NCBI GenBank assembly: GCA_022824405.1
Contig: JAJDZZ010000074.1
Location: 1 to 64,000 of the forward strand
Length of the DNA stretch: 64,000 bases
From: Opitutales bacterium
GTDB taxonomy: Bacteria; Verrucomicrobiota; Verrucomicrobiia; Opitutales; UBA2995
Direction of reading: 5' to 3'
This document shows positions 14,447-50,761 of the stretch, piece after piece. Each line of letters opens with the position of its first letter. The first letter of the stretch is position 1. The notes under the pieces were generated by a model that worked only from the letters and a program-made list of their open reading frames with translations, was not told where the DNA came from and did not search any database. Position numbers and translations under genes: made by a program.

Positions 14447-14867
14447 TCCGAAAAAAAGGGGGCTGTCCTGAATAATTCTTGGTCGGCCCTGAAGGAGTCA
14501 TAATTGTTCGGAGTAGGTGAATTGCTTCCGGCTTCGCAAAGTTACTCGAAATGCTGTGCGTCCTTTTTCCGGATACTGCCTTCCTGCGCAATCGCGGCGT
14601 AAACCCGCTCCTACAAGGCTACAAGGCGCGCGGGGCGCGCCAATTGGCGTGGTGGGGGACAGGAATGTCCCCCCTCCGTTATCTCTTGGCGTTTCTTGGC
14701 GATCTTGGCGAGAGTCCTCTCCTCTCAGCAACTCAGCATCTCATATAATTCCTAATTCCTAATTCCAAATTGGCGCGCCTTGGCGCGCCTCAAGCAATCG
14801 CGGCGTAAAGCCGCCCCTACTCGAAATGAGGTTTCAATTCCCGGTTTTTGGGATAGTCTCTAACGTA
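14447..14867. repeat. Repeat-rich spacer (words oriented toward the right-hand gene)
   Basis: No gene is supported. The spacer is a string of words found elsewhere in the window: two copies of a GCGGC-GTAAA-GCCGC type hairpin with flanks CAATC..CCTAC (14589-14614 and 14795-14820); a GC-rich stretch and hairpin GGGGGACA-GGAA-TGTCCCCC-CTCCGTTA (14625-14681); a 'CTTGGCG' tandem (14682-14716); two and a half units of 'AATTCCT' (14747-14766); and GGCGCGCC-TT-GGCGCGCC (14772-14789). The last hairpin ends just before the following gene. Confidence 0.8.
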
Positions 14868-17198
14868 ATGAAGGTTTTAAAAAGGATTATTCTCCTCATT
14901 TTGTGGTTTCCGGGCGCCGGGCTGTCGCAGGGGACAGGTTTGGCTCCACTGCAGGAAAGCGTGACACGGCATTGGATAGGTCCGGAATATTGGACCAATC
15001 CCCTGATGAACTGGAGGCTTTCGAACGGCCGAATCGAAAATACCCATGGCGGTTGGGTCAACGAGGTGCATTCCCTTACGCATCAGCTCAAGGAGGGGGA
15101 TGGGGAATTTTCCATGCGGGTGCGTTCAGGCCTCTTGCCGGGTCGAGGAACTTCAGATGCTGAAGTAGCCTTTGTGGGATTCAAGTTCGGCGCGGTCGGG
15201 CATCGCAACGATTACAGGTCGAACCTATTGCATGATTTGGAAAGCGCATTTGCGGAAGAATTGATGCGGGAGCCTCCTCTACAGGCCGGCTTTACAACGG
15301 ATGGACGCCTGATCGTCGGTTCTGAATTATCGGAGCGGTTCCTCATGCCGAATCACATGAAGGATGCCGTGCTGGCGCTCGATGTCATCTATGCCGCCAA
15401 GGTCGCCAAGGTGCGGTTGACGGTTTCGGTTTCAAACGAGGAAATCGGTGTTTTGGAATCGGAAATAGAAAGGGAGTCCTTGATCGGTAATGTGGCCCTC
15501 GCTTGTCACGGCTTAAATCCACCCAGGCGAAAGCGACGCGATGCAACCGACCTGAACCATCCCAGGTTCTGGTTTTCCGACTGGGAGGTAAGTGGGGAAA
15601 AATTCAGCTTTCGCCCGGAACAGACCTTTGGACCTATCCTATGGTCCCAATACACGCTGCATGAAAACAGGCTGAAACTGATGGCCTTTTTCGTCCCCAT
15701 GGAGGACGAGGCGAACAAGGTGGCGGAACTACAGGTCCGTTCCGGTGGGAAGTGGGGCACGGTGGCCAGGAGTACCATTGATCCATTGTCCCGCACAGCT
15801 CTTTTCCGCGTGGACGATTGGGACAGCGCCATCGACCGGGACTACCGGGTAACCTACCGCTGGAACTCAATGGACGGGGATGACCTGGCGATTTGGAGCG
15901 GAACCATTCGCAGGGATCCGGTCGATAAGGAAACCATTGTCATGGCCGGTTTGTCCTGCTCGCACTCGGAATTGTTTCCCAACCGGTTTCTGGTGGAAAA
16001 CCTCCTTCTTCAGGATCCCGACCTCGTCTTTTTTTCCGGAGACCAGATTTACGAAACCAACGGGGGTTATTGGATCGTGACAGCCAGCAACAAACAGGAC
16101 GTTCCGCGAGCGGCGCTCAACTACCTGGGGAAATTCTGGCTCTCCATTCTCGGATTTCGGGATCTCCTGAAAGATCGTCCGAGCGTCATGGTTCCCGATG
16201 ATCATGACCTGTATTCAAATGACCTGTGGGGGAAAGGGGGTATCCCAATGGAGCGGGAAAGGTGCTTCGGCGGTTACCGCATGCACCGTGACTGGATCAA
16301 TATGGTGGAGCACACCCAAATGGCACACCGCCCGGATCCTTTTGACCCCGGGCCCATCGACCAGGGAATTCGCGCTTACACCACAAGCCTGGATGTCGGA
16401 GGGGTCAGTTTTGCCCTGATCAACGACCGCAAATTCAAATCCGCTCCCGGGGATGTGTTAGACGCCATGGAGCCCCTGTTTGTCATGCGTGGAGAGCGAA
16501 ATCTGTCCTCGCTGGATTCCATCAATGAGGAGGGTTTCGATACTCGAAGTTTGGACCGGGAAGATCTTCAGTTGCTGGGGCGGCGCCAGCTCGATTTTCT
16601 CCGCCACTGGGCCAAAGACGGAGCCCCTCTCCGGGCCGTGCTGCATCAGTCCGCCTTTTGCCAACCGCACCATCTGATGCTGGCCGATATGGACTCCAAT
16701 GGCTGGCCCCAATCGGGGCGCAACCGGGCCCTTGAAGTAATTCGCCAGGCCAATGCTGTGATGATCAGTGGCGATCTGCATTTTGCCTCACTGGTGCAGC
16801 AGGGTATCGACGATTGGGAAGATGCGGGATGGAGTTTCACCCTCCCCGCCGTGTTGACGCAGACCCACCGTTTCTGGCGTCCGACAGTTGCGGGAGAAAA
16901 CCGCCTGCCCGGCATGCCGGATTACACCGGGCGATTCCTGGATGGTTGGGGTAACAGGATTACGGTTTGGGCCGCGGCAAATCCTCGCAGCTTCCTGATC
17001 GACGACCCTTATCGGGGGGAAGGAGAAAGAACCCTCGAATACCTGCGGACGAACGGCCTTGGCTACGGGATCGTCCGATTCAACAAACCGGACCAAACCG
17101 TGACCTTCGAAAGCTGGCCGGTTTACGGAGCTTTTAAGGGTCCTGAAGCGCACCGGCAACACCCGGGATTTCCCAGGACGGTGAATATGCGGAGATAA
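14868..17198 (+). CDS. Large secreted PhoD-like metallophosphatase, copy 1
   Basis: Protein of about 776 aa related to PhoD-like metallophosphatases. An ATG at 14826 lies nearer the repeats; the ATG at 14868 gives the better signal peptide (M-K-V-L-K-R-I-I-L-L-I-L...). The first 350 residues are a beta-rich domain without an assigned function (motif W-I-G-P-E-Y-W-T-N-P-L-M-N-W). The phosphatase part follows: G-L-S-C-S-H-S-E-L-F, F-S-G-D-Q-I-Y-E, P-D-D-H-D-L-Y-S-N-D, I-N-D-R-K-F-K-S-A and S-G-D-L-H-F-A, which supply the expected metal-binding Asp/His residues. The gene at 25558 is a close paralogue over the full length, including the N-terminal domain. The role is probably hydrolysis of a phosphate ester outside the cytoplasm; the substrate is unknown. 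Confidence 0.8.
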   Translation: MKVLKRIILLILWFPGAGLSQGTGLAPLQESVTRHWIGPEYWTNPLMNWRLSNGRIENTHGGWVNEVHSLTHQLKEGDGEFSMRVRSGLLPGRGTSDAEVAFVGFKFGAVGHRNDYRSNLLHDLESAFAEELMREPPLQAGFTTDGRLIVGSELSERFLMPNHMKDAVLALDVIYAAKVAKVRLTVSVSNEEIGVLESEIERESLIGNVALACHGLNPPRRKRRDATDLNHPRFWFSDWEVSGEKFSFRPEQTFGPILWSQYTLHENRLKLMAFFVPMEDEANKVAELQVRSGGKWGTVARSTIDPLSRTALFRVDDWDSAIDRDYRVTYRWNSMDGDDLAIWSGTIRRDPVDKETIVMAGLSCSHSELFPNRFLVENLLLQDPDLVFFSGDQIYETNGGYWIVTASNKQDVPRAALNYLGKFWLSILGFRDLLKDRPSVMVPDDHDLYSNDLWGKGGIPMERERCFGGYRMHRDWINMVEHTQMAHRPDPFDPGPIDQGIRAYTTSLDVGGVSFALINDRKFKSAPGDVLDAMEPLFVMRGERNLSSLDSINEEGFDTRSLDREDLQLLGRRQLDFLRHWAKDGAPLRAVLHQSAFCQPHHLMLADMDSNGWPQSGRNRALEVIRQANAVMISGDLHFASLVQQGIDDWEDAGWSFTLPAVLTQTHRFWRPTVAGENRLPGMPDYTGRFLDGWGNRITVWAAANPRSFLIDDPYRGEGERTLEYLRTNGLGYGIVRFNKPDQTVTFESWPVYGAFKGPEAHRQHPGFPRTVNMRR

Positions 17199-17499
17199 GA
17201 CAAACAGGCGCTGATTAACGAAGAATCCGAAAAGGAGGGAGGCGCCGGGGGCCTTTTGTGGAATCCCGTTGGGGTTCGGTTGTATGGGGGATTGGTAACC
17301 CAGCGTGCGCTATGCGACACTGGGCTTGGGAGTTTAACGCCTTTGGCGTAAGAGTCGGATGCTCGATGCTCGATGCTGGAAACGCTGCGATTGCGCTGGG
17401 TGTAATGGAATTGACTGGAAATTAAAACCTGTGGGTCAAGTATAGGGAAAAGGCAAAAAACCCGCCACTAGTCACCGGTCACCGATCAAAAAAACCTAC
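17199..17499. repeat. Repeat-rich spacer with REP-like hairpin
   Basis: Contains a truncated GGCGCC hairpin (17241-17253), then a block (about 17260-17330) built of a 'CCCGTTGGGG' element and an imperfect palindrome CCCAG...CTGGG (17298-17325). The same block occurs inverted at about 36571-36645. ACGCC-TTT-GGCGT (17337-17349), a 'GATGCTC' tandem near 17355-17380 and a 'GTCACCGGTCACCGATC' tandem near 17470 follow. The repeats continue into the next coding sequence. Confidence 0.75.
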
Positions 17500-19113
17500 G
17501 TGAAATCCGTGGTCAAATTTCTCTTCTTCACATATCTCTGTGTCCTCTGCGCCCTCCGTGGTTTTTCTATCTCCCCTTCACAAATGGAGCCGATTACGGA
17601 TAGCGCCACAATGTCCAAGGGTGAGGAGCTGGCCAAGAGACATTGCATCGCCTGTCACGCTTATACCCCTCCCGAGTTGCTGACAAAAAGGAGCTGGAAT
17701 TTCCTCCTGACCTACATGGGCATGCGCATGGGAATTGACGATACGAGTTTTGTGCCCCATCCCGACGAAGTTGAGAAAAACGTCCTGGAAGCCCGTCGCC
17801 TGACGCTGAGCGCGAGTAATCTCATTCCCGAAAAACCGGCAATGAGCAAGCAAGACTGGATGCTACTCAGGCAGTATTACGCCGATCATGCTCCGGAGGC
17901 TCCTCTTCTGCCGGAAAACAAACCCCTGTCGAGCGGTTCTGTGGATATCTTTGAGGAAAAGAAGCATCGTTATCAGGTTAAGGGTTCGATTGTGTCCCTG
18001 GTTCACATCGACGAAATAAACGGACAAATATTGATCGGCGATAGCCGGAACCAGCAACTCACCATCCTCGATTCCGATCTGGAATGGTTGAACCACATAT
18101 CTTCCAAGGGCGCATTCTGGGTGGATGCCATCCCATCCGCCAAAGACCTATACCTTCTTTCCGTTGGGGACATACCTGGCATATTCTCAGAACAGAAATT
18201 GGGTAAATTGGCTTACGGCCGGAGAATTGGAAACATGTACTATCCTCGCGGCATGATTCTGACAGATCTCTACAGGCCGACGGACATCGAATTGGCCGAC
18301 CTGGACAATGATGGAATCGACGAATTACTGGTCTGCAGTTTCGGTGATGAAGGCGGAGATTTTTCTATCTTTAATCGCAAGAAGATCGGCGTGGAATTTG
18401 AATCCAAACCGGTTTTGACCCTCTATAAAGGTACCGGCGCTTTGCAATGCTCCACCCACGACTTCAACTACGATGGCTTTCAAGATATTGTATTGCTGGT
18501 AGGGGATTCCGATGAACACCTGAGCCTGTTCATCAATCACGGCAATAAGAGCTTTACGGAAAAGCAAATTTTCAAAACCCATCCGTCATGGGGATCTATG
18601 CGATTTCAATTGGTCGACATCGACCAGGACGGTGAAATGGACATCCTGACCACGAATGGCGACAACGTGGACTCCGATCCCTACAATACTTTGAAGCGAT
18701 ATCATGGCGTTCGCGTGTATTTGAATATGGGAGACCTGAATTTCCAGGAGCGCTATTTCTATCCCATGTACGGCTGTTACCACCTGGAAGCTCACGATTA
18801 CGACCTGGATGGGGATATCGATATTGCCGCCACTTCCTTTTATCCGGATTTCAATGCGGAACGACCGGAGAACTTTGTCTATTTGGAACAAACGGAGCCC
18901 CTGAAATTTTCACCCAAGGTGCATCCCTCAACCCAAACAGGCCGGTGGATGACCATGGACGCCGGGGATCTCGATCAGGATGGGGATATCGACATAGCAT
19001 TGGGAGGCGCCTATGTTCCTTTGGGATTGCCGGTCGGCCACGAAGCCGATCTTGCCGAAATGATGGAAACGGGACCGACACTGCTCTTCCTGGAAAATAA
19101 AGCGGCAGATTAG
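17500..19113 (+). CDS. Exported cytochrome c / FG-GAP (VCBS) repeat protein
   Basis: A 537-aa protein with an N-terminal heme-binding motif C-I-A-C-H (C49, C52, H53) and a downstream M-G-M-R-M-G region that could supply the axial methionine. Behind it are at least four FG-GAP/VCBS-type calcium loops (D-L-D-N-D-G-I-D-E, D-I-D-Q-D-G-E-M-D, D-Y-D-L-D-G-D-I-D, D-L-D-Q-D-G-D-I-D), the signature of a beta-propeller. Such proteins are exported; the function is unknown, perhaps electron transfer linked to a dehydrogenase-like or binding propeller. The only frame giving a signal peptide starts at a GTG (17500). That peptide, including L-C-V-L-C-A-L-R-G, is encoded by the inverted form of an interspersed repeat. 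An internal ATG (17584) would lack export. Confidence 0.8.
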   Translation: MKSVVKFLFFTYLCVLCALRGFSISPSQMEPITDSATMSKGEELAKRHCIACHAYTPPELLTKRSWNFLLTYMGMRMGIDDTSFVPHPDEVEKNVLEARRLTLSASNLIPEKPAMSKQDWMLLRQYYADHAPEAPLLPENKPLSSGSVDIFEEKKHRYQVKGSIVSLVHIDEINGQILIGDSRNQQLTILDSDLEWLNHISSKGAFWVDAIPSAKDLYLLSVGDIPGIFSEQKLGKLAYGRRIGNMYYPRGMILTDLYRPTDIELADLDNDGIDELLVCSFGDEGGDFSIFNRKKIGVEFESKPVLTLYKGTGALQCSTHDFNYDGFQDIVLLVGDSDEHLSLFINHGNKSFTEKQIFKTHPSWGSMRFQLVDIDQDGEMDILTTNGDNVDSDPYNTLKRYHGVRVYLNMGDLNFQERYFYPMYGCYHLEAHDYDLDGDIDIAATSFYPDFNAERPENFVYLEQTEPLKFSPKVHPSTQTGRWMTMDAGDLDQDGDIDIALGGAYVPLGLPVGHEADLAEMMETGPTLLFLENKAAD

Positions 19114-25489: not shown

Positions 25490-25557
25490 CCACGACCTTG
25501 GTTACTTGTTATGCCGTTGGAAACTGATCTTGATCGCTCCCCTATTCCAACTCTCCT

Positions 25558-27906
25558 ATGAAGAAAACTGTCAATAAACTCATTTTTTCCGTTGTTTCCC
25601 TGATGTGGGCTTGTTCGTCCGGCGCCCAGGATCTGCCGCTTTTGCAACAGGGGATCACCCGCACGTGGATAGGCCCCGGATATTGGACCAATCCGCTTAT
25701 GAACTGGCGGCTGTCGAACGGTCGCATTGAATGTCACCATGGGGGTTTGGTGAACGAAGTGCACGCATTGACCCATCAACTTGTTGAGGGGGATGGAGAT
25801 TTCCGGATGCGAGTCAAGGTGGGTTTGTTGGAAGAGAGGGCATCCGCCGAGGGGATAGTCGTATTTGCCGGATTCAAGTTTGGGGCGGTGGGGCACCGTA
25901 ACGATTACCGCTCCAATATTTATTATGACATAGAGTCCGGCTTCGCTGAGGAAGTTATGAGGGAGCCGCCATTGCAGGCAGGTATAACTTCGGACGGTCA
26001 ACTGATCATAAACTCCAAATCTTCCGGGAAAGTATTGACTTCCGCCGATTTGAAAGCGTGTCGCATGGATCTGGAAGTCGACTATGCCGAAAATCTCGCC
26101 ACCGTTCGGCTGAAAGTCGAAAAGGCGGATGGTGAAATCGCCTATTTGGAGTCGAGAATTGAGCGGGATACATTGGTCGGAAATGTGGCCCTGGCCTGTC
26201 ATCCCTTATTGAGACAAGGCAGAAAGCGTCATGACCACAGCGATCCCGATCATTCCACATTCTGGTTTTCCGATTGGTCGGTGAGCGGAAATAAGTTTAA
26301 AGCAAATCCCGAACAGACTTATGGACCCGTTCTGTGGACCCAGCACACCCTCCACAACAAGGTCCTCAAGTTGATGGCATTTTTTGTCCCGATGGAGGAC
26401 TCAGCCAGTCGGGTGGCATCCTTGCAACTGAAGTCGAGTTCGGGTTGGACAACCGTAGCGGAGAGCCGGATCGATCCTTTGTCGTTAACTGCCAGTTTTC
26501 GCGTAGAAAACTGGGATGACTCTATCGATCGGGATTACCGGGTAAGGTATAGCTGGAATTCGGTAAATGGAGCTGAGGATTCCAATTGGAGCGGTACCAT
26601 TCGCAAAGATCCAAAAGAAAAAGACAGGATTGTTTTAGCCGGTCTTACCTGTTCCCACGCGGAATTATTTCCCAACCGGTTTTTCGAGGAAAACCTTTTG
26701 GCGCAGGATCCCGACGTGGTGTATTTCGCCGGGGACCAGGTCTATGAAACTTGCGGGGGTTATGGCATCGTCGTGGCTGAAGAGGAGGCGGAGGTCGAGC
26801 GAGCGGCGTTGAACTACCTCGGAAAACTCTGGCTCCTTGGACTCAGTTTTCGCGATCTGTTGAAGGACCGCCCGAGCGTCATGATTCCGGATGATCACGA
26901 TGTGTATTCAAATGATCTTTGGGGCAAAGCGGGGGTTCGCATGTCGGGAGACCTGTCAGAAATGGATATGCGTTGCTTTGGAGGCTATCGCATGCACCCG
27001 AAGTGGGTAAAAATGGTTGAACATACCCAAATGGGACATCACCCGGATCCTTTCGATCCTACGCCGATTCAACAAGGTCTCCGCGCCTACTATGCAAGTC
27101 TCGACGTGGGAGGGGTTAGTTTTGCCCTCATAAACGACCGAAAATTCAAATCCGCTCCCGCTGACGTAATCGATGCCATGGAGCCTCTTTTTGAGATGAG
27201 AGGAGAAAAAAACCTCCCTCGTTTGGATGTGATCGATGAGGAAGATTTCGATACCTCCACCTTGGACCGCCACGACCTGACCCTGTTGGGACACCGTCAA
27301 TTGGAATTTCTTCGCGTTTGGGGATCTGACGGCAGGAAACTTCGGGCGGTATTATCGCAATCTCCCTATTGCCAACCCCATCACCTGATGGTTGCGGACT
27401 TTGATTCCAATGGTTGGCCCCAATCCGGACGCAGACGAGCCCTGGAGGTTATTCGCGAAGCCAAAGCTGTCATGATCCATGGTGACCTGCACTTCGCCAC
27501 CCTCGTGGAACAAGGAATCGATACATGGGAAGACGCGGGTTGGTCGTTTACCCTTCCCGCCGTCGTAACGGGAACCCGCCGTGAGTGGCGACCAAAAATT
27601 GAGGGAGGAAACCGACTGCCTGGCATGCCGCCTTACACGGGCCGGTTCCTCGATGGTTGGGGTAACAAAATAACCGTCTGGGCCGCAGTAAATCCGTACA
27701 GCTTTTTAATCGAGGACGATTACGAAGGCGACGGTAAAGCGACTCTGGATTTTCTTCGCTACAAAGGGCTCGGATATGGGATCGTTCGATTCGATAAGTC
27801 ATCGAATTCCGTGACCTTCGAAAGTTGGCCGGTATATGGCAGATTCAAAGGAGTCGATGCGCACGAGCAACATCCGGGTTTTCCCAAAACCGTAAGCATT
27901 CGATAA
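25558..27906 (+). CDS. Large secreted PhoD-like metallophosphatase, copy 2
   Basis: Full-length paralogue (782 aa) of the protein at 14868, sharing the N-terminal W-I-G-P-G-Y-W-T-N-P-L-M-N-W domain and all phosphatase signatures: G-L-T-C-S-H-A-E-L-F, F-A-G-D-Q-V-Y-E, P-D-D-H-D-V-Y-S-N-D, I-N-D-R-K-F-K-S-A and H-G-D-L-H-F-A. The signal peptide ends near C-S-S-G-A-Q; the cysteine could in principle serve as a lipidation site. One difference is the insertion S-G-D-L-S-E-M-D before M-R-C-F-G-G-Y. The two copies probably arose by duplication within this region and may act on related phosphate esters. A terminator lies about 190 bp downstream. Confidence 0.8.
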   Translation: MKKTVNKLIFSVVSLMWACSSGAQDLPLLQQGITRTWIGPGYWTNPLMNWRLSNGRIECHHGGLVNEVHALTHQLVEGDGDFRMRVKVGLLEERASAEGIVVFAGFKFGAVGHRNDYRSNIYYDIESGFAEEVMREPPLQAGITSDGQLIINSKSSGKVLTSADLKACRMDLEVDYAENLATVRLKVEKADGEIAYLESRIERDTLVGNVALACHPLLRQGRKRHDHSDPDHSTFWFSDWSVSGNKFKANPEQTYGPVLWTQHTLHNKVLKLMAFFVPMEDSASRVASLQLKSSSGWTTVAESRIDPLSLTASFRVENWDDSIDRDYRVRYSWNSVNGAEDSNWSGTIRKDPKEKDRIVLAGLTCSHAELFPNRFFEENLLAQDPDVVYFAGDQVYETCGGYGIVVAEEEAEVERAALNYLGKLWLLGLSFRDLLKDRPSVMIPDDHDVYSNDLWGKAGVRMSGDLSEMDMRCFGGYRMHPKWVKMVEHTQMGHHPDPFDPTPIQQGLRAYYASLDVGGVSFALINDRKFKSAPADVIDAMEPLFEMRGEKNLPRLDVIDEEDFDTSTLDRHDLTLLGHRQLEFLRVWGSDGRKLRAVLSQSPYCQPHHLMVADFDSNGWPQSGRRRALEVIREAKAVMIHGDLHFATLVEQGIDTWEDAGWSFTLPAVVTGTRREWRPKIEGGNRLPGMPPYTGRFLDGWGNKITVWAAVNPYSFLIEDDYEGDGKATLDFLRYKGLGYGIVRFDKSSNSVTFESWPVYGRFKGVDAHEQHPGFPKTVSIR

Positions 27907-32793: not shown

Positions 32794-33113
32794 TGGAGGA
32801 AGAGGCGCCAAGGCGCCGATTAAGAATTAGGAATTAGGAATGAAAAGGCTGAAGGCTAATAAACCCTTACTTCCTCTTATCCGCTCTTTGCGAGATTAAA
32901 TGATTTGACTTGGTCCGAAGTTTGGGTCCTCCCAGAGGTGAGGCGGTCTGAGAGGGTTGGGTCTTCACCCGATCATTCCAACATTGCAAAGTTTGGGTAA
33001 ACCTGGATACTCCCGAAGCAAGAATAGATTGGATCGAGTAGTTACAAGCACAGCACAGGCAGGTAGGGGATTATAAGATCATTCCAAGATACATCGCAGA
33101 GAGGTACTGAAAA
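32794..33113. repeat. Spacer with repeat words and left copy of a direct repeat
   Basis: After the esterase come GGCGCC-AA-GGCGCC (32804-32817), the 'GAATTAG' tandem (32824-32841) and a 'GAAAAGGCTGAAGGCTAA' word also seen near 36475. Positions 32862-32923 are the left copy of a direct repeat whose right copy lies at 33635-33735, so the toxin-antitoxin pair sits between them. The rest, up to the GAGG ribosome binding site before 33114, shows nothing definite. Confidence 0.6.
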
Positions 33114-35155: not shown

Positions 35156-35295
35156 AGGGCGCCAAGGGCGCCAATGAGGAATGAAGAATTAGGAATTAGG
35201 AATGAGGGAGAAGAGATTAACCACGGATTTCGCGGATGAGCACGGATATGAGGCGCCAAAGGCGCCTCTCCCTCTGTGTTCTCTGTGGTTTATTT
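35156..35295. repeat. Compact spacer made entirely of repeat words
   Basis: In order from the left: GGCGCC-AAG-GGCGCC (35158-35172), the 'GAATTAG' tandem (35180-35204), the 'AACCACGGAT..CACGGAT' word (35218-35247), GGCGCC-AAA-GGCGCC (35252-35266), and the inverted 'CTCTGTGTTCTCTGTGGTT' word (35272-35290). Left-end words face away from the sulfatase and the last word faces the ThuA gene. The ThuA stop codon touches this last word. Confidence 0.85.
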
Positions 35296-36252
35296 TCAGG
35301 GCGCCCTGGTAACGATTATTTCGGAGGAAAAATCCGCCGCATCGGGGACGGGAAAGGTAACCGTTCCGGTGGCGGCCCATTCCGATCCCCGGATCAGCAG
35401 GTTCTGAAAACCGGCCCCGGAAAAGGCCTCGTTGCTGTGGCCCAGCATGATGTGGAATACGCGGCCCTTTTCGTAATCGGTGGTCAGGACGATGGGGTGA
35501 TGGTTGCCACTTCCTCCCGTATCGGGATCCGAATAGGCGCTGGCAAGTACGGTGATGCCCTCGGCCGGACCGCACATGTTGAAGTAGACTTCGTCAGTGG
35601 GATGCAGCCAGGAATTGGGAAATCCCTTGGTAATGGGGTGGTCCGAATTGCGTATATCGACCACGGCCGGTTGTCGTTTGCCGTGGGCTCCGCATTTGCC
35701 CGAACTGTGGTCCAGAACAAGGCTGTCATTTTCCCAGAGAATCTTGGGACCATGCCGCTCGGTAGTTCTGCCGTACCAACCGCCCACCCCGATCATCCTC
35801 TGGTATTCCTCCCATTGGGAAAAGGCGTTGTTTGCGGCGTGAACGACGACAAAGCCGCCGCCGTTTTGCAGGTATTCCATGAAATCGAGCTGAACTTCTT
35901 CCGGCCAGAGAACGCCGTTGTAATTGGACAGAACCAGGTCGTAGGAGCCGAAATCCGGTCGCCATTGGTCCCATTGCGCCTGGAGTGCAGCGGCCATTTC
36001 CGGAACCTCCGGATGGGACGCGCCGTAATTCTGCTTGCGTCCGTCACTAGGGGGAGTGCGGGTAAGGGTCACTTCAAACTTACCGGTTTTCTCTAGAAAG
36101 CTCTTCATGAACTGAGAGGTTTCGGGCCAGTTTCTGTGGTTGTTCTGGCCTTCGATGAGCAAAACCTGGATGGGTTCTGACGCGTCCGCCCGAGCGGTTC
36201 CAAGGGTCAGGATAAGGGGAGCAAGAAGAATGGAAAATATACGCTTATTCAT
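35296..36252 (-). CDS. Exported ThuA-like protein
   Basis: Protein of 318 aa with a signal peptide (about 1-25) and a ThuA domain, a glutamine-amidotransferase-like fold found with sugar-utilisation genes in this phylum. Visible features are L-L-I-E-G-Q-N-N-H at the start of the fold, Y-D-L-V-L-S-N-Y-N-G, G-G-G-F-V-V-V-H-A-A-N-N-A-F, and the late histidine region G-R-V-F-H-I-M-L-G-H. In the ThuA family the function is thought to concern disaccharide or keto-sugar metabolism, but no catalytic cysteine of amidotransferases is expected. It may be transcribed with the sulfatase to its left, though a repeat-filled spacer separates them. Confidence 0.88.
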   Translation of the reverse strand: MNKRIFSILLAPLILTLGTARADASEPIQVLLIEGQNNHRNWPETSQFMKSFLEKTGKFEVTLTRTPPSDGRKQNYGASHPEVPEMAAALQAQWDQWRPDFGSYDLVLSNYNGVLWPEEVQLDFMEYLQNGGGFVVVHAANNAFSQWEEYQRMIGVGGWYGRTTERHGPKILWENDSLVLDHSSGKCGAHGKRQPAVVDIRNSDHPITKGFPNSWLHPTDEVYFNMCGPAEGITVLASAYSDPDTGGSGNHHPIVLTTDYEKGRVFHIMLGHSNEAFSGAGFQNLLIRGSEWAATGTVTFPVPDAADFSSEIIVTRAP

Positions 36253-36973
36253 GGGTAATTGCCAACAACATGCCCACTATGCGGGTGGGCTTTGGGACAG
36301 TCAATTGCTGTTTCGGGAGGAAGGGGTCGAGGGCGCCGGGGGCGCCATTGAGGAATTAGGAATGAGGGAGAAGGGAGTGATGGAATGGAGGAGTGGATAA
36401 AAGAGGAACCACGGATTACACGGATGAGCACGGATATGAAGCGCCCGGGGGCGCCAATGAGGAATTAGGAATTAAAAGGCTAAAGGTTGAAGGCTAAAGG
36501 CTGGATAGGTAGGAGCAGCTTTACGCCGCAATCCCACGAAACAGCCTCCACCCCGATCTGGGATGAACTGCAAAGCCCAGTGTCGCGTAGCGCACGCTGG
36601 GTAGGAATGGGAAACAGATCACAAACCCCAACGGGGTTCCACATGAGGCGCCGAGGGCGCCAGTGTTCAGTAATCAGGGTTCAGTGTTCAGTGGGCGCCG
36701 GAGGCGCCAATCAGGAATGAGGAGTGTTGGTATGATGGAGTGATGGAGTGGGGGAGTGGTGAGAAGTAAATCGTGGTCGCGATCGAGAATTAATATGGAT
36801 GCACAAGAAGGACAGGATAATTCATATTATCTCTCGCCACTGATAACTGACCACTGAACTCTTTCCTCTTCCCTCTTTCCTCTCGGCGCAAAGCGCCGCA
36901 GAATTCCCCTTGTTAGAAGTTCGATCCGCTGCTATATTTCCCCCAAATCGCCCCTAATTATTTGTCATAATCC
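36253..36973. repeat. 720-bp repeat-mosaic spacer
   Basis: No gene is supported; short open frames here are readings of the repeats. Recognisable words are GGCGCC-GGG-GGCGCC (36332-36346), 'GAATTAGGAAT' (36351-36364 and 36461-36474), 'AACCACGGATTACACGGAT' (36407-36440), a GCGCC hairpin (36441-36455), the GTAGG..TTACGCCGC hairpin (36509-36535), the CCCAG..CTGGG palindrome with the 'CCCCAACGGGG' element (36571-36640), GGCGCC-GAG-GGCGCC (36647-36661), GGCGCC-GGA-GGCGCC (36694-36708), tandem 'GTTCAGT' copies and GGCGC-AAA-GCGCC (36885-36897). The last 70 bp before the next gene look unique and should hold its promoter. Confidence 0.8.
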
Positions 36974-47337: not shown

Positions 47338-47741
47338 GCTACAGATAAACCAGGATAAGGCACGCCCCCGGCGCGCCAATTAAGAATTAGGAATTAGGAA
47401 TTAGGAATTGAGAGAGAGGTCAACCACGGATAACACGGATGAGCATGGGTAATCGTGATCGTGATCGTAATCGTGATCGAAAAAAGAAATTGCCTCTCGC
47501 AAAGATCGCCAAGAGGCGCCGATGGCGCCAAAACAAGAGTTAACGGAGGGGGGACATTCCTGCATGCCACGCCGGGAGGCGGGTCCCCCACCACGCCAAT
47601 TGGCGCGCCCCGCGCGCCTCTCTCTCACCAAGAATGCAAATAGAGGAAGGAAGATTTTTGGTTGACCAATCACCTTTACCGGAACAATTTGGGCCATCCA
47701 TCATCTTATTGCGTTGTAAGAGAACAGCAGTCTTTTGAATT
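47338..47741. repeat. Repeat-mosaic spacer (words facing away from the protease gene)
   Basis: No gene is supported. Words in order: an ACGCC-CCC-GGCGCGCC variant hairpin (about 47362-47377), the longest 'GAATTAG' tandem in the window (47384-47409), 'CAACCACGGATAACACGGAT' type (47421-47449), 'GTGATC' tandem (47451-47482), 'CTCGCAAAGATCGCCAAGA' (47495-47514), GGCGCC-GAT-GGCGCC (47515-47529), and an inverted, expanded copy (47539-47620) of the block at 14625-14681. The last 120 bp before 47742 look unique. Confidence 0.8.
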
Positions 47742-47963
47742 ATGAATCGTCAAATCTGTACGGATTTCCTGGTGTCTACCCCCAATTTTAGAACTGGATT
47801 TGGATCGGTCATGAATGTCGCTGGTAACTATTATCGGTTCAACCAATCGAAAAATGGTAAAGAGGCGGATACCTTGGCTCTGTTTATGGATTGGGCCTGT
47901 GTCGGGGAAGATGTACGGGCGGCGACGGATAAGGAAGCCAAAGACTTGAAGGAAACCGAATAG
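47742..47963 (+). CDS. Small protein of unknown function
   Basis: A 73-aa frame starting with ATG, rich in polar residues, without signal peptide or membrane span. Its sequence (F-R-T-G-F-G-S-V-M-N-V-A-G-N-Y-Y, then A-D-T-L-A-L-F-M-D-W-A-C-V-G-E-D-V-R-A-A) looks like a genuine conserved small protein, but the family was not recognised. It ends at a TAG, and the next gene begins 6 nt later in the same reading frame, so the two products are encoded as one open frame apart from this stop. Co-expression is certain if both are real. Confidence 0.6.
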   Translation: MNRQICTDFLVSTPNFRTGFGSVMNVAGNYYRFNQSKNGKEADTLALFMDWACVGEDVRAATDKEAKDLKETE

Positions 47964-47969
47964 GCACAA

Positions 47970-48434
47970 TTGGCTTCCAAGAAAAAACCAAGGCGAGGAA
48001 AGAAACGGTTTCATCCTCCCTCACGGAAAGCGGGAGGCAATCTTGAGCCAAACAGGAAAGAACACCTTGTTCGGGTTACAGAGGAAGTAGTCCATTCCGG
48101 TCCGTTGCCTTCGCCTGAACAACTGGAAAAATATGATGAGGTAGTGCCGGGTGCAGCAATGCGCATAATGCAGGCATTCGATGAACAGAGACAACACAGA
48201 ATCGCAATTGAGAAACAAGTTGTCTCCAGCCAGATGAAAGAAAGTAATCGGGGTCAAATTATGGGATTCATTATCGCCGTAATTGGGTTATCATTAGGAT
48301 CTTTCTTAGTTTACTCGGGACATGATGTCGCCGGTGCATCAATTGCCGGAATCACGTTGGTAGGGTTGGTAACAGTTTTTATTAAGGGGCAAAACAGACA
48401 GGATAAGGATCTGAAAGGGAAAGATCCTGGATGA
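47970..48434 (+). CDS. DUF2335-like membrane protein
   Basis: Protein of 154 aa resembling the DUF2335 family of predicted membrane proteins. A basic N-terminus (K-K-K-P-R-R-G-K-K-R) is followed by the family-like segment P-L-P-S-P-E-Q-L-E-K-Y-D-E-V-V-P-G-A-A, a helix with Q-R-Q-H-R, and two adjoining membrane spans (I-M-G-F-I-I-A-V-I-G-L-S-L-G-S-F-L-V-Y and I-A-G-I-T-L-V-G-L-V-T-V-F-I) ending in a charged tail. The only reasonable start is a TTG at 47970; the alternative is readthrough of the TAG from the upstream 73-aa frame, which is in phase. The function of the family is unknown. Confidence 0.75.
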   Translation: MASKKKPRRGKKRFHPPSRKAGGNLEPNRKEHLVRVTEEVVHSGPLPSPEQLEKYDEVVPGAAMRIMQAFDEQRQHRIAIEKQVVSSQMKESNRGQIMGFIIAVIGLSLGSFLVYSGHDVAGASIAGITLVGLVTVFIKGQNRQDKDLKGKDPG

Positions 48435-48599
48435 GGAATTGACTCTCGCCAAGAACACCAAGAGACGCCTCCGGCGCCATCATCTGGCTATTACGCCAAA
48501 GGCGTTAAACTCCAAAGCCCAGCAACTCAGCAACTTAGCATCTCTTATAATTCCTAATTCCTAATTGGCGCGCCAGCGCCTCTCTGCGCCCTCTGTGGT
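48435..48599. repeat. Short repeat-mosaic spacer
   Basis: Words: 'GACTCTCGCCAAGAACACCAAGAGA' type (48441-48465), G(A)CGCC-TCC-GGCGCC (48464-48478), ACGCC-AAA-GGCGT (48493-48505) followed by part of the 'CAAAGCCCAG' element, then inverted 'AATTCCT' tandem (48548-48566), GGCGCGCC, and inverted 'CTCTGCGCCCTCTGTGGTT' (48583-48600). The last word contains the stop codon of the next gene. Confidence 0.8.
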
Positions 48600-50480
48600 T
48601 TATTTAATCAGTTGGAGGACCTCGATCTCGAAATGGCGGGTCGGGAAGAGGGTGTGGCCGGGGCTGGAGAGGATGGTGAAGCTGTCGATATGGGTGAGCG
48701 GTTGCTTCGCAGTGAGGAAGTTGGAGATATCGGAATTGGTTTGGAGAAGGGGGCTCAACAAAAATCCGTTTGGCAGGTTGGGTCCCACCAGCCTCACTTC
48801 GAATTCCTCGCCCCGGTCGGTGATCAGGCGCAAGAGAAGGGTTTCGGGTTTGTAAACGAGTGCCTGGGCTCTTTGCAGGAGGTTCGGTTCATAGCGCACT
48901 CTGACCCACAGGGGGCGGCCGGAGTATTTTGTCACGTCGACGCGTTGACCGGAGAGAATTCTTGTCTGCAGAACGCTGATTTCCTCGGTGAATTGTTTGG
49001 CACCGGGCGATCGTTCGAGCAGGAGAAATTCCTGTTCGGTCAGTACGGGCAGGTAGTGTTGCAAAAATTCGCGGTAATAGAGGTTGTCTTCGGCCAAGGC
49101 GTAAAATCCATCCCAAAAGTCATCCCGGCTCAAAAGGTAACGGGGAGGGTTTTTCAGCACGTGGTCATAATTCAGGCGGGCCAGGCGCGGATTGTAGGCC
49201 AGGTAGTTTTGCAGGGTGGGACGCGGCTGGTAATTGAGGTCGTTCAGGAGCAGAATACCCTGATGATGGAGGAGCACGTCCATTGAATCCCTTCCGACGC
49301 GGGCTTTGACGGCGGGCAAGTCGTGTAAAGATTTTATAGAGGGGATCCGGTCGGAAAAGCCTGTTTTCAAGCTGCCGGGGTTCAGGATGGTTTGCACTCC
49401 TTTTTCAAAATTTTGATGGGCTCGGTCGAAAGTCTGTTCCCGGTTGAGGGGGATCATCCAGAAGCAGGATATGAAAAACGCGATAAAACAGACCGATACC
49501 CAGGAAAGAGCCCATTTCCTGGGTCCGATGAATTGGAGGAGCATGGCCGGTAACAGAACCGAACCCTGGAGAAAGTAGGTCATGTGATGGTCGGGGCGAA
49601 CCACCCCGGCCTTCCAGGTAAGGAAAAGGGTCAGGGCGGATAATCCGAAGATTGCCCAGTTGACCGGTTCCTTCCGGCGATGAATGGTCCAGGCCAGAAT
49701 GGGGAGGCCGGCCAACAGTACTATGAGAAGAAGAGGCAGGATGATACCGAAGGATTCGTGTCTCTGCATGGACCACTGGTGACCCATGGCCACGCTTAAG
49801 GAATGGCTCCAATAAGCCGGTATATTTGCCGGGGACTGGCCGACTGCGATCCAGAGGAGAGAGATGGCGCCAAGGTAAATCCCCGATAGCTGGGCAGCAG
49901 TTTTATAATTCTTTTGCCAAAGGTGAAAGAGGCAGAGGAAGGCAGTGCAACCGAATCCCATCAGTGCGAAGCTGAATTTCATCAGGCTGAGGACGGCCAC
50001 AAAACCATAGAGGGCAACCATCCTGTAGATTTTGAGGTCACCCAGGAGCAATCGGAGTGAGACGGCGGCCAGAGAACACAAATAGATTCCGTCTTTGCCT
50101 GAGGCGGCGGCGCAAAAGAGGACGATGAACAGGGCGCCGTGAACCCAGTTGGGCTGAGAACGAAGGGTGGAGAAAAGGAAGAAAAGGGCCAGATACAGTA
50201 CGAGCGCCTCCGCAAATACCTGAAGGAGGGGATAATACCCATTGGAAGTGGGCGAATAGAGGAGGTTCAAAGGACCACCGGTAAAAATGATGTCCTTTCC
50301 GAATTGCCATTGCTTGAAGAAGGCCTCTTCCAGAACGGCCTGCCAGGAGGAGTCCAGATTTGGAGTAACGAAGTAGGGGGAAGGAAACAGAAAAAGGAGG
50401 GTCAGAAAAGCCAGACCGGCCTCCAGCCACGGCCATTTTCGAATGCGTTTTAGTGTGGTGTCCTTTAAGTAAACAACCAC
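48600..50480 (-). CDS. Polytopic membrane protein, GT-C-like
   Basis: Membrane protein of about 626 aa with roughly ten spans in its first 400 residues and a soluble C-terminal part of about 220 residues. An acidic loop after the first span (T-P-N-L-D-S-S-W-Q) and a D-H-H motif between spans (R-P-D-H-H-M-T-Y) are arranged as in GT-C type lipid-linked sugar transferases, so a role in glycan assembly is plausible but not proven. An ATG at 50570 would add an R-S-R-S-R-S peptide read from a GTGATC repeat; the GTG at 50480 is preferred, although it too lies inside a repeat. Both gene ends overlap copies of the same repeat in opposite orientation. The glycosyltransferase operon starts 190 bp upstream. 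Confidence 0.7.
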   Translation of the reverse strand: MVVYLKDTTLKRIRKWPWLEAGLAFLTLLFLFPSPYFVTPNLDSSWQAVLEEAFFKQWQFGKDIIFTGGPLNLLYSPTSNGYYPLLQVFAEALVLYLALFFLFSTLRSQPNWVHGALFIVLFCAAASGKDGIYLCSLAAVSLRLLLGDLKIYRMVALYGFVAVLSLMKFSFALMGFGCTAFLCLFHLWQKNYKTAAQLSGIYLGAISLLWIAVGQSPANIPAYWSHSLSVAMGHQWSMQRHESFGIILPLLLIVLLAGLPILAWTIHRRKEPVNWAIFGLSALTLFLTWKAGVVRPDHHMTYFLQGSVLLPAMLLQFIGPRKWALSWVSVCFIAFFISCFWMIPLNREQTFDRAHQNFEKGVQTILNPGSLKTGFSDRIPSIKSLHDLPAVKARVGRDSMDVLLHHQGILLLNDLNYQPRPTLQNYLAYNPRLARLNYDHVLKNPPRYLLSRDDFWDGFYALAEDNLYYREFLQHYLPVLTEQEFLLLERSPGAKQFTEEISVLQTRILSGQRVDVTKYSGRPLWVRVRYEPNLLQRAQALVYKPETLLLRLITDRGEEFEVRLVGPNLPNGFLLSPLLQTNSDISNFLTAKQPLTHIDSFTILSSPGHTLFPTRHFEIEVLQLIK

Positions 50481-50761
50481 AGAGGACACAGAGAGCACAG
50501 AGTTTTTTCGTGATCGTGATCTTGATCGTGATCGTGATCGAAATTGAAACATGGATCTCACTTCGCCCAAACCAAGCTACGCACGGCACGGCGGCAGGAC
50601 AAGTTGATCAGGATGGACAGGATTTTATGGTAATGAAAGCGCACCTTTCAATTGGACCAAAAATAATGTTATAATTGGACAATGGATACGTCTTCATTCT
50701 ATCCTCGAAAAGTCCGTCGTTTGGGTGAACAAATAAATGAGAAATGACATTAGGGTAACCT
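50460..50761. repeat. Repeat words and spacer upstream of the membrane protein
   Basis: 'AACCACAGAGGACACAGAGAG' type word (50475-50502), which overlaps the assigned gene start, and a 'GTGATC' tandem (50509-50541). A 'GTTGATCAGGATGGACAGGATTTTA' type word near 50604-50628 shares its core with the spacer near 36808. The remaining bases to 50761 show nothing recognisable. Confidence 0.65.

Follow-up and report, generated by a model that had tools for sequence, protein, structure and literature searches.

What supplies the start codon and the export signal of the open reading frame that begins at GTG 17500? Within the window, the 64,000-nucleotide stretch analyzed here, which belongs to a 3.4-Mb MAG of 92 contigs from an uncultured Opitutaceae-like bacterium, this codon opens a frame for a protein of 537 aa (17500-19113, plus strand). 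The protein matches Pfam FG-GAP_3 (3e-29) and contains a CIACH motif; its match to Pfam DHC is weak (0.0078, below the cut-off). Judged by the CxxCH motif and the putative export signal, it would be a c-type cytochrome-like protein, with heme attachment predicted. Our analysis supports the derivation of both the start codon and the export signal of this gene from a short intergenic interspersed repeat. The features discussed are listed in Table 1. A paralogue pair of ~73% DNA identity is also present in the window, at 14826-17198 and about 25500-27900, 10.7 kb apart (direct repeats D2-D4, D6 and D7).

Table 1. Features of the focal gene and of the membrane protein gene in the window
Feature	Position	Strand	Basis
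Spacer composed of further repeat words; no hairpin on folding (z +0.96)	17199..17498	.	folding, word search
Repeat word 1 CGTGAAATCCGTGGTCA, giving the GTG start and M-K-S-V-V	17499..17515	+	exact match of 17 nt in L112; 59 copies
Focal gene, putative exported cytochrome-like protein, 537 aa, with predicted signal peptide, heme-type CIACH motif and FG-GAP repeats	17500..19113	+	ORF, Pfam
Predicted signal peptide MKSVVKFLFFTYLCVLCALRGFS	17500..17568	+	mean hydropathy over 13 residues 2.51 (1.24-2.49 in signal peptides of orthologues)
Repeat word 2 CTCTGTGTCCTCTGCGCCCTCCGTGGTTTTT, giving the hydrophobic core L-C-V-L-C-A-L-R-G-F	17536..17566	+	family counts, hydropathy
CIACH motif	17644..17658	+	sequence
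Membrane protein; only starts in or upstream of the word; G001 orthologue starts ATG MKVSLQQLQKLPWLEAG	48600..50480	-	start survey, G001 comparison
~300-bp stretch in G000, absent from the syntenic G001 site (about 7 bp there)	50444..50750	.	G001 comparison
Repeat word CTCTGTGCTCTCTGTGTCCTCTGTG at the start of the membrane gene	50478..50502	-	word search

Repeat words at the N-terminus of the focal gene

Codons 1-23 of the focal gene consist of two tandem repeat words with a short spacer between them. The core of the first, CGTGAAATCCGTGG, provides the start codon and M-K-S-V-V. The second takes the form CTCTGTGTCCTCTG..GTGGTT in this gene (L-C-V-L-C-A-L), and the frame as a whole translates as MKSVVKFLFFTYLCVLCALRGFS. 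The earlier note had located the word CCGTGGTC at 17507, where it is indeed found, and a second word at about 17538. That second word, CTCTGTGTCCTCTGCGCCCT, exists but starts at 17536 (17536-17555), and the word said to follow it, CCGTGGTTTTT, occupies 17556-17566.

Both words are genuine interspersed families, far above chance. Allowing up to 2 mismatches, CGTGAAATCCGTGG had 59 matches in 605 kb compared to 0 for the control, while CTCTGTGTCCTCTGCG, with up to 3 mismatches, had 194+209 matches in the genome (403 raw) compared to 4+6 (10) for the reversed control. The second word is built as a 9-bp tandem, (CTCTGTGNN)n, with a terminal GGTT. Its L-C-V frame meets a stop in about one third of copies (the tail is GGTTAA in 53 of 164 and GGTTAG in 6 more), so not every copy could serve as coding sequence. 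A second copy of the focal two-word block, matching in order and orientation, is present at L074:12668 (L074:12668-12730). This block lies outside any called gene, and its frame would read MKSVVFLLLPLCALCVLCG. A comparison with Rfam gave no match within the window.

Source of the predicted focal export signal

Read from GTG 17500, the repeat segment would function as a Sec-type signal peptide by rule: it has lysines at positions 2 and 6, a core FLFFTYLCVLCAL and a possible G-F-S cleavage site. The best 13-residue mean hydropathy of the core is 2.51, compared to 1.24-2.49 in the signal peptides of orthologues. Going upstream from GTG 17500, no alternative start is met before the in-frame stop that lies just ahead of 17446, and no Shine-Dalgarno-like sequence precedes the GTG. 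The other two frames hold no signal peptide, of the orthologue type or otherwise, in keeping with the earlier claim that the repeat supplies the only export signal.

Orthologues (G002, G004, G006, G007, G036 and named genomes) have unrelated N-termini, nearly all of them recognizable ATG-started signal peptides that lack the word. This holds for the closest orthologue, L244, which comes from an Opitutaceae MAG and is the nearest named relative of the focal gene; L244 is 62% identical and syntenic, shares a TonB-receptor-like downstream neighbour and starts MRVELPIVSVSTLALLGASLVPALGVAQ, with no repeat word. The distance from the N-terminus to CxxCH is about 47-53 residues in orthologues where measured and 48 in the focal protein. 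A search for a same-genus orthologue of the focal gene found none. One related sequence, L013 (G003:C5:93958), has the C-terminal third alone of the focal protein, placed right behind a normal signal peptide, MRLFNSILIILPFLGFVGGLSAQ, and looks like an internal deletion that retained the export signal.

The repeat might instead be 5' untranslated DNA, with translation beginning at ATG 17584 (or 17611) and the word staying open in this frame by chance. ATG 17584 is in frame, 7 codons past the word, and a survey of REPs (PMC3733652) reported that many REPs at predicted N-termini actually lie upstream of the true start. However, a protein started at 17584 would be left without any export signal (best 13-residue mean hydropathy 0.14, with no hydrophobic segment remaining), whereas the full-length orthologues have one at that distance from the heme motif, and four sister genes described below have no downstream ATG that spares the domain. 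We therefore regard a downstream start as unlikely. We infer translation from GTG 17500, with putative Sec export directed by the repeat segment.

Recurrence at other genes

The earlier note had suggested that the word could act in this way repeatedly. To survey other copies, genes were called with a codon model in 605 kb around word copies, covering 277 of the 403 raw matches. A called gene is touched by 15 of the 164 word copies, and in seven intact genes the word lies in or at the N-terminus, always in the sense direction. Besides the focal gene these are genes for a purple acid phosphatase (L141), a GSDH-family dehydrogenase (L106), a sulfatase (L131), a membrane protein (window 48600-50480, minus strand), a metallopeptidase with a PKD domain (L103) and a GH16 enzyme (L097). 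The suggestion is thus borne out by at least six further genes, three of which have a repeat-free orthologue in the same genus.

A hydrophobic N-terminus was present in 7/7 word genes compared to 20/38 neighbours with starts clear of the word (Fisher p 0.02) and to a rate of 0.364 among called genes under the same rule (p about 8e-4), a post hoc enrichment based on seven genes. In the phosphatase, GSDH, sulfatase and membrane protein genes the first downstream ATG lies 71-179 codons into the body. The word is read in more than one frame. The focal gene and the phosphatase use the L-C-V frame; the dehydrogenase, sulfatase, membrane protein and metallopeptidase use the S-V-V frame, in which a GTG of the word is available as a start; and the GH16 gene uses the L-C-P-L-W frame. 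The start codon of the phosphatase is uncertain, and with some choices the n-region is long or carries no charge. For the GH16 gene, a TTG directly past the word is a possible start. In its forward frames the consensus word encodes uncharged, hydrophobic sequence (1.9 to 2.7), whereas in its reverse frames it encodes strongly polar sequence (-2.3 to -3.5), and the sense-only pattern of the seven genes fits this difference.

A replicate in stretches of G001 and G058 gave one further case in G001 (metallopeptidase, L159) and no word-started gene in the G058 stretches. Several long ORFs running through the word (e.g. L104, L119, L137, L115 and window 35272) were discounted as likely antisense shadows of real genes, and the LptF/G-like L090 and several other genes were excluded, each having its own start downstream of the word. 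The FG-GAP paralogue L002 (G000:C72:157542-158345, minus strand) has a lipoprotein-like N-terminus (..LAFLIILGLTGCKK) and no ATG, and its upstream frame consists of the TTCAGCCTTTAGCC word; L002 is perhaps another repeat-capped gene.

Comparison within the genus

The word occurs about 108 times in the same-genus genome G001 and is absent from six sister-genus genomes. For three word genes of G000, those for the sulfatase, the membrane protein and the phosphatase, the G001 orthologues have an ordinary ATG start and lack the word. At the first two of these, synteny is intact on both sides, 250-300 bp of repeat DNA is found at the junction, and the insert occurs in G000 but not at the orthologous site of G001. 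The flanks of the membrane gene are about 86-87% identical in DNA on both sides, and in G000 a start is possible only in the insert, while the G001 gene starts MKVSLQQLQKLPWLEAG. In the sulfatase, ~250 bp stands in place of ~70 bp that included the ATG and MKNPAIRPLLTTA; the remainder of the signal peptide (ILLLTFGLSGVGA / LLIAFGLSVIGA) is preserved. The G001 sulfatase orthologue (L178/L239, G001:C362, about 5000; about 86-90% identity) is apparently frame-shifted near codon 40-60, reflecting either an assembly error or decay. The phosphatase reads MVKIRIILLLFSAATVYA-NEYHRAAVDRAP in G001, where MVKIRIILLLFSAATVYA is an ordinary signal peptide, compared to LCALCVLCGLFLSPLLFFTVPVHA-DEYHRAAVDRAP in G000; upstream synteny between the two was not recovered at this gene.

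The metallopeptidase differs in that both species initiate inside the word, and in G001 a stop codon lies immediately upstream. Its orthologues in the sister genus start at an ATG and have no word. The shared word start has thus probably persisted since the split of the two species.

All of these comparisons are based on MAG assemblies, and repeats could have mis-joined unrelated DNA to the word genes. The MAG is in 92 contigs and several contig ends lie near word copies. Nevertheless, no exact match between the focal region and the rest of the sequence examined exceeds 17 bp, which makes repeat-driven misassembly there unlikely; the independent G001 assembly has the word at the matching place in the metallopeptidase; and at two genes synteny runs on past both ends of the insert. 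An assembly artefact is accordingly very improbable.

A further possibility is that the focal gene is decaying, the word having destroyed the original signal peptide so that the protein is mislocalized or not made. The original signal peptide is gone, and the frame-shifted appearance of the G001 sulfatase suggests that loss may occur in the genus. On the other hand, the focal 537-codon frame is intact with a strong codon bias, the replacement segment matches the signal peptides of orthologues in hydropathy, and the length before CxxCH is kept at ~50 aa. We consider decay doubtful, slightly more so than a downstream start. The preferred reading is that the repeat replaced the N-terminus of a gene whose product would still be exported.

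Structure of the repeat

Neighbouring copies of the word are arranged as minus-left/plus-right pairs in 17 cases compared to 1 in the opposite arrangement. In G058 the corresponding numbers are 9 and 0, with spans of 74-222 bp. Folding of the inserts at the sulfatase and phosphatase genes gives long hairpins, closed by AACCACAG/CTGTGGTT (z -4.1 and -6.2). From this pair arrangement and these hairpins, the word is best interpreted as marking the outward end of a MITE-like unit of inverted repeats, with a presumed transposition-like origin. Such a position would also explain why the word tends to read toward the adjacent gene (26 sense, 12 antisense among neighbouring genes). Terminal inverted repeats are present at the sulfatase and phosphatase inserts, not clear at the membrane gene and absent at the focal copy, where folding of the spacer found no hairpin (z +0.96) and no partner arm. 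The focal copy would be a lone or eroded element end, left by a presumed insertion.

Other window spacers (14745-14786, 32801-32860, 35159-36742 and 47364-48593) are patchworks of 6-9 bp tandem words, including GAATTAG+G, GATCAC, CACAGAGNN, GGCACAAAG, CACGGATNN and TTGGCGAGA, many of them over-represented in non-coding DNA.

Discussion

The words are repeats, orthologues without them have other signal peptides, and insertion or replacement is visible at sister genes. Taken as a whole, the observations are probably explained by MITE/REP-like repeats that landed at the 5' ends of genes, replaced their N-termini and were kept as export signals through read-through. Under this model short repeats with an outward end CTCTGTG..CTCTGTGGTT would land at or inside gene 5' ends, where they would replace or displace the codons, start codon included, with which the gene originally began. 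In each of its three frames the pyrimidine-rich strand is hydrophobic and lacks charged residues, GTGs in the word can act as start codons, and the companion word contributes GTG-AAA-TCC-GTG-GTT (M-K-S-V-V). Read-through would then produce a signal peptide or signal anchor that the cell can use, and such insertions might therefore persist where the product is exported or sits in the membrane. For the focal gene, two such words would account for the entire signal peptide.

A broader proposal is that the repeat family is a portable "start codon plus export signal", whose ends can cap truncated genes and are preferentially retained in exported proteins. In this way a single dispersed non-coding element would, more than once in the same genus, have formed the N-termini of secreted enzymes anew. 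We put the chances of this proposal at about even. The within-genus examples capture conserved enzymes before and after repeat DNA became their start codon and signal peptide. The origin of new signal peptides is usually argued from experiments with random sequence, and the natural pairs described here are directly testable for export, expression and selection. They are also a warning to gene-callers against trimming such N-termini as non-coding.

A literature search on the repeat word itself found nothing relevant among the papers listed. MITE-derived signal peptides and in-frame palindromic elements are already known (PMC2229807). The closest parallel there is the Yersinia YPAL/RU-2 repeat at locus YPO1552 (Delihas 2007), a MITE-like repeat fused in frame, which contributes to the signal peptide predicted for a putative exported protein. 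YPO1552 is a single putative protein of 144 aa, whereas here seven intact genes are involved, several in conserved enzyme families, and three have repeat-free orthologues in the same genus; the two repeats are not known to be related. The Rickettsia palindromic elements (RPE; Ogata et al. 2000, cited in PMC2229807) are hairpin repeats with terminal inverted repeats that lie in frame in conserved proteins. Our word is likewise read in frame inside otherwise conserved proteins, a likeness of behaviour for which no homology is claimed. RPEs, however, are described as tolerated inserts within gene bodies, while here the outward end gives start codons and N-terminal signal sequence. Within the Verrucomicrobia, GTAG/CGTC REPs are interspersed palindromic repeats, abundant in Opitutus terrae, some of which lie inside ORFs or at N-termini (PMC3733652). 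Those are units of 20-40 bp with GTAG/CGTC tags, whereas the present word is a 9-bp tandem ending inverted-repeat units of about 75-330 bp.
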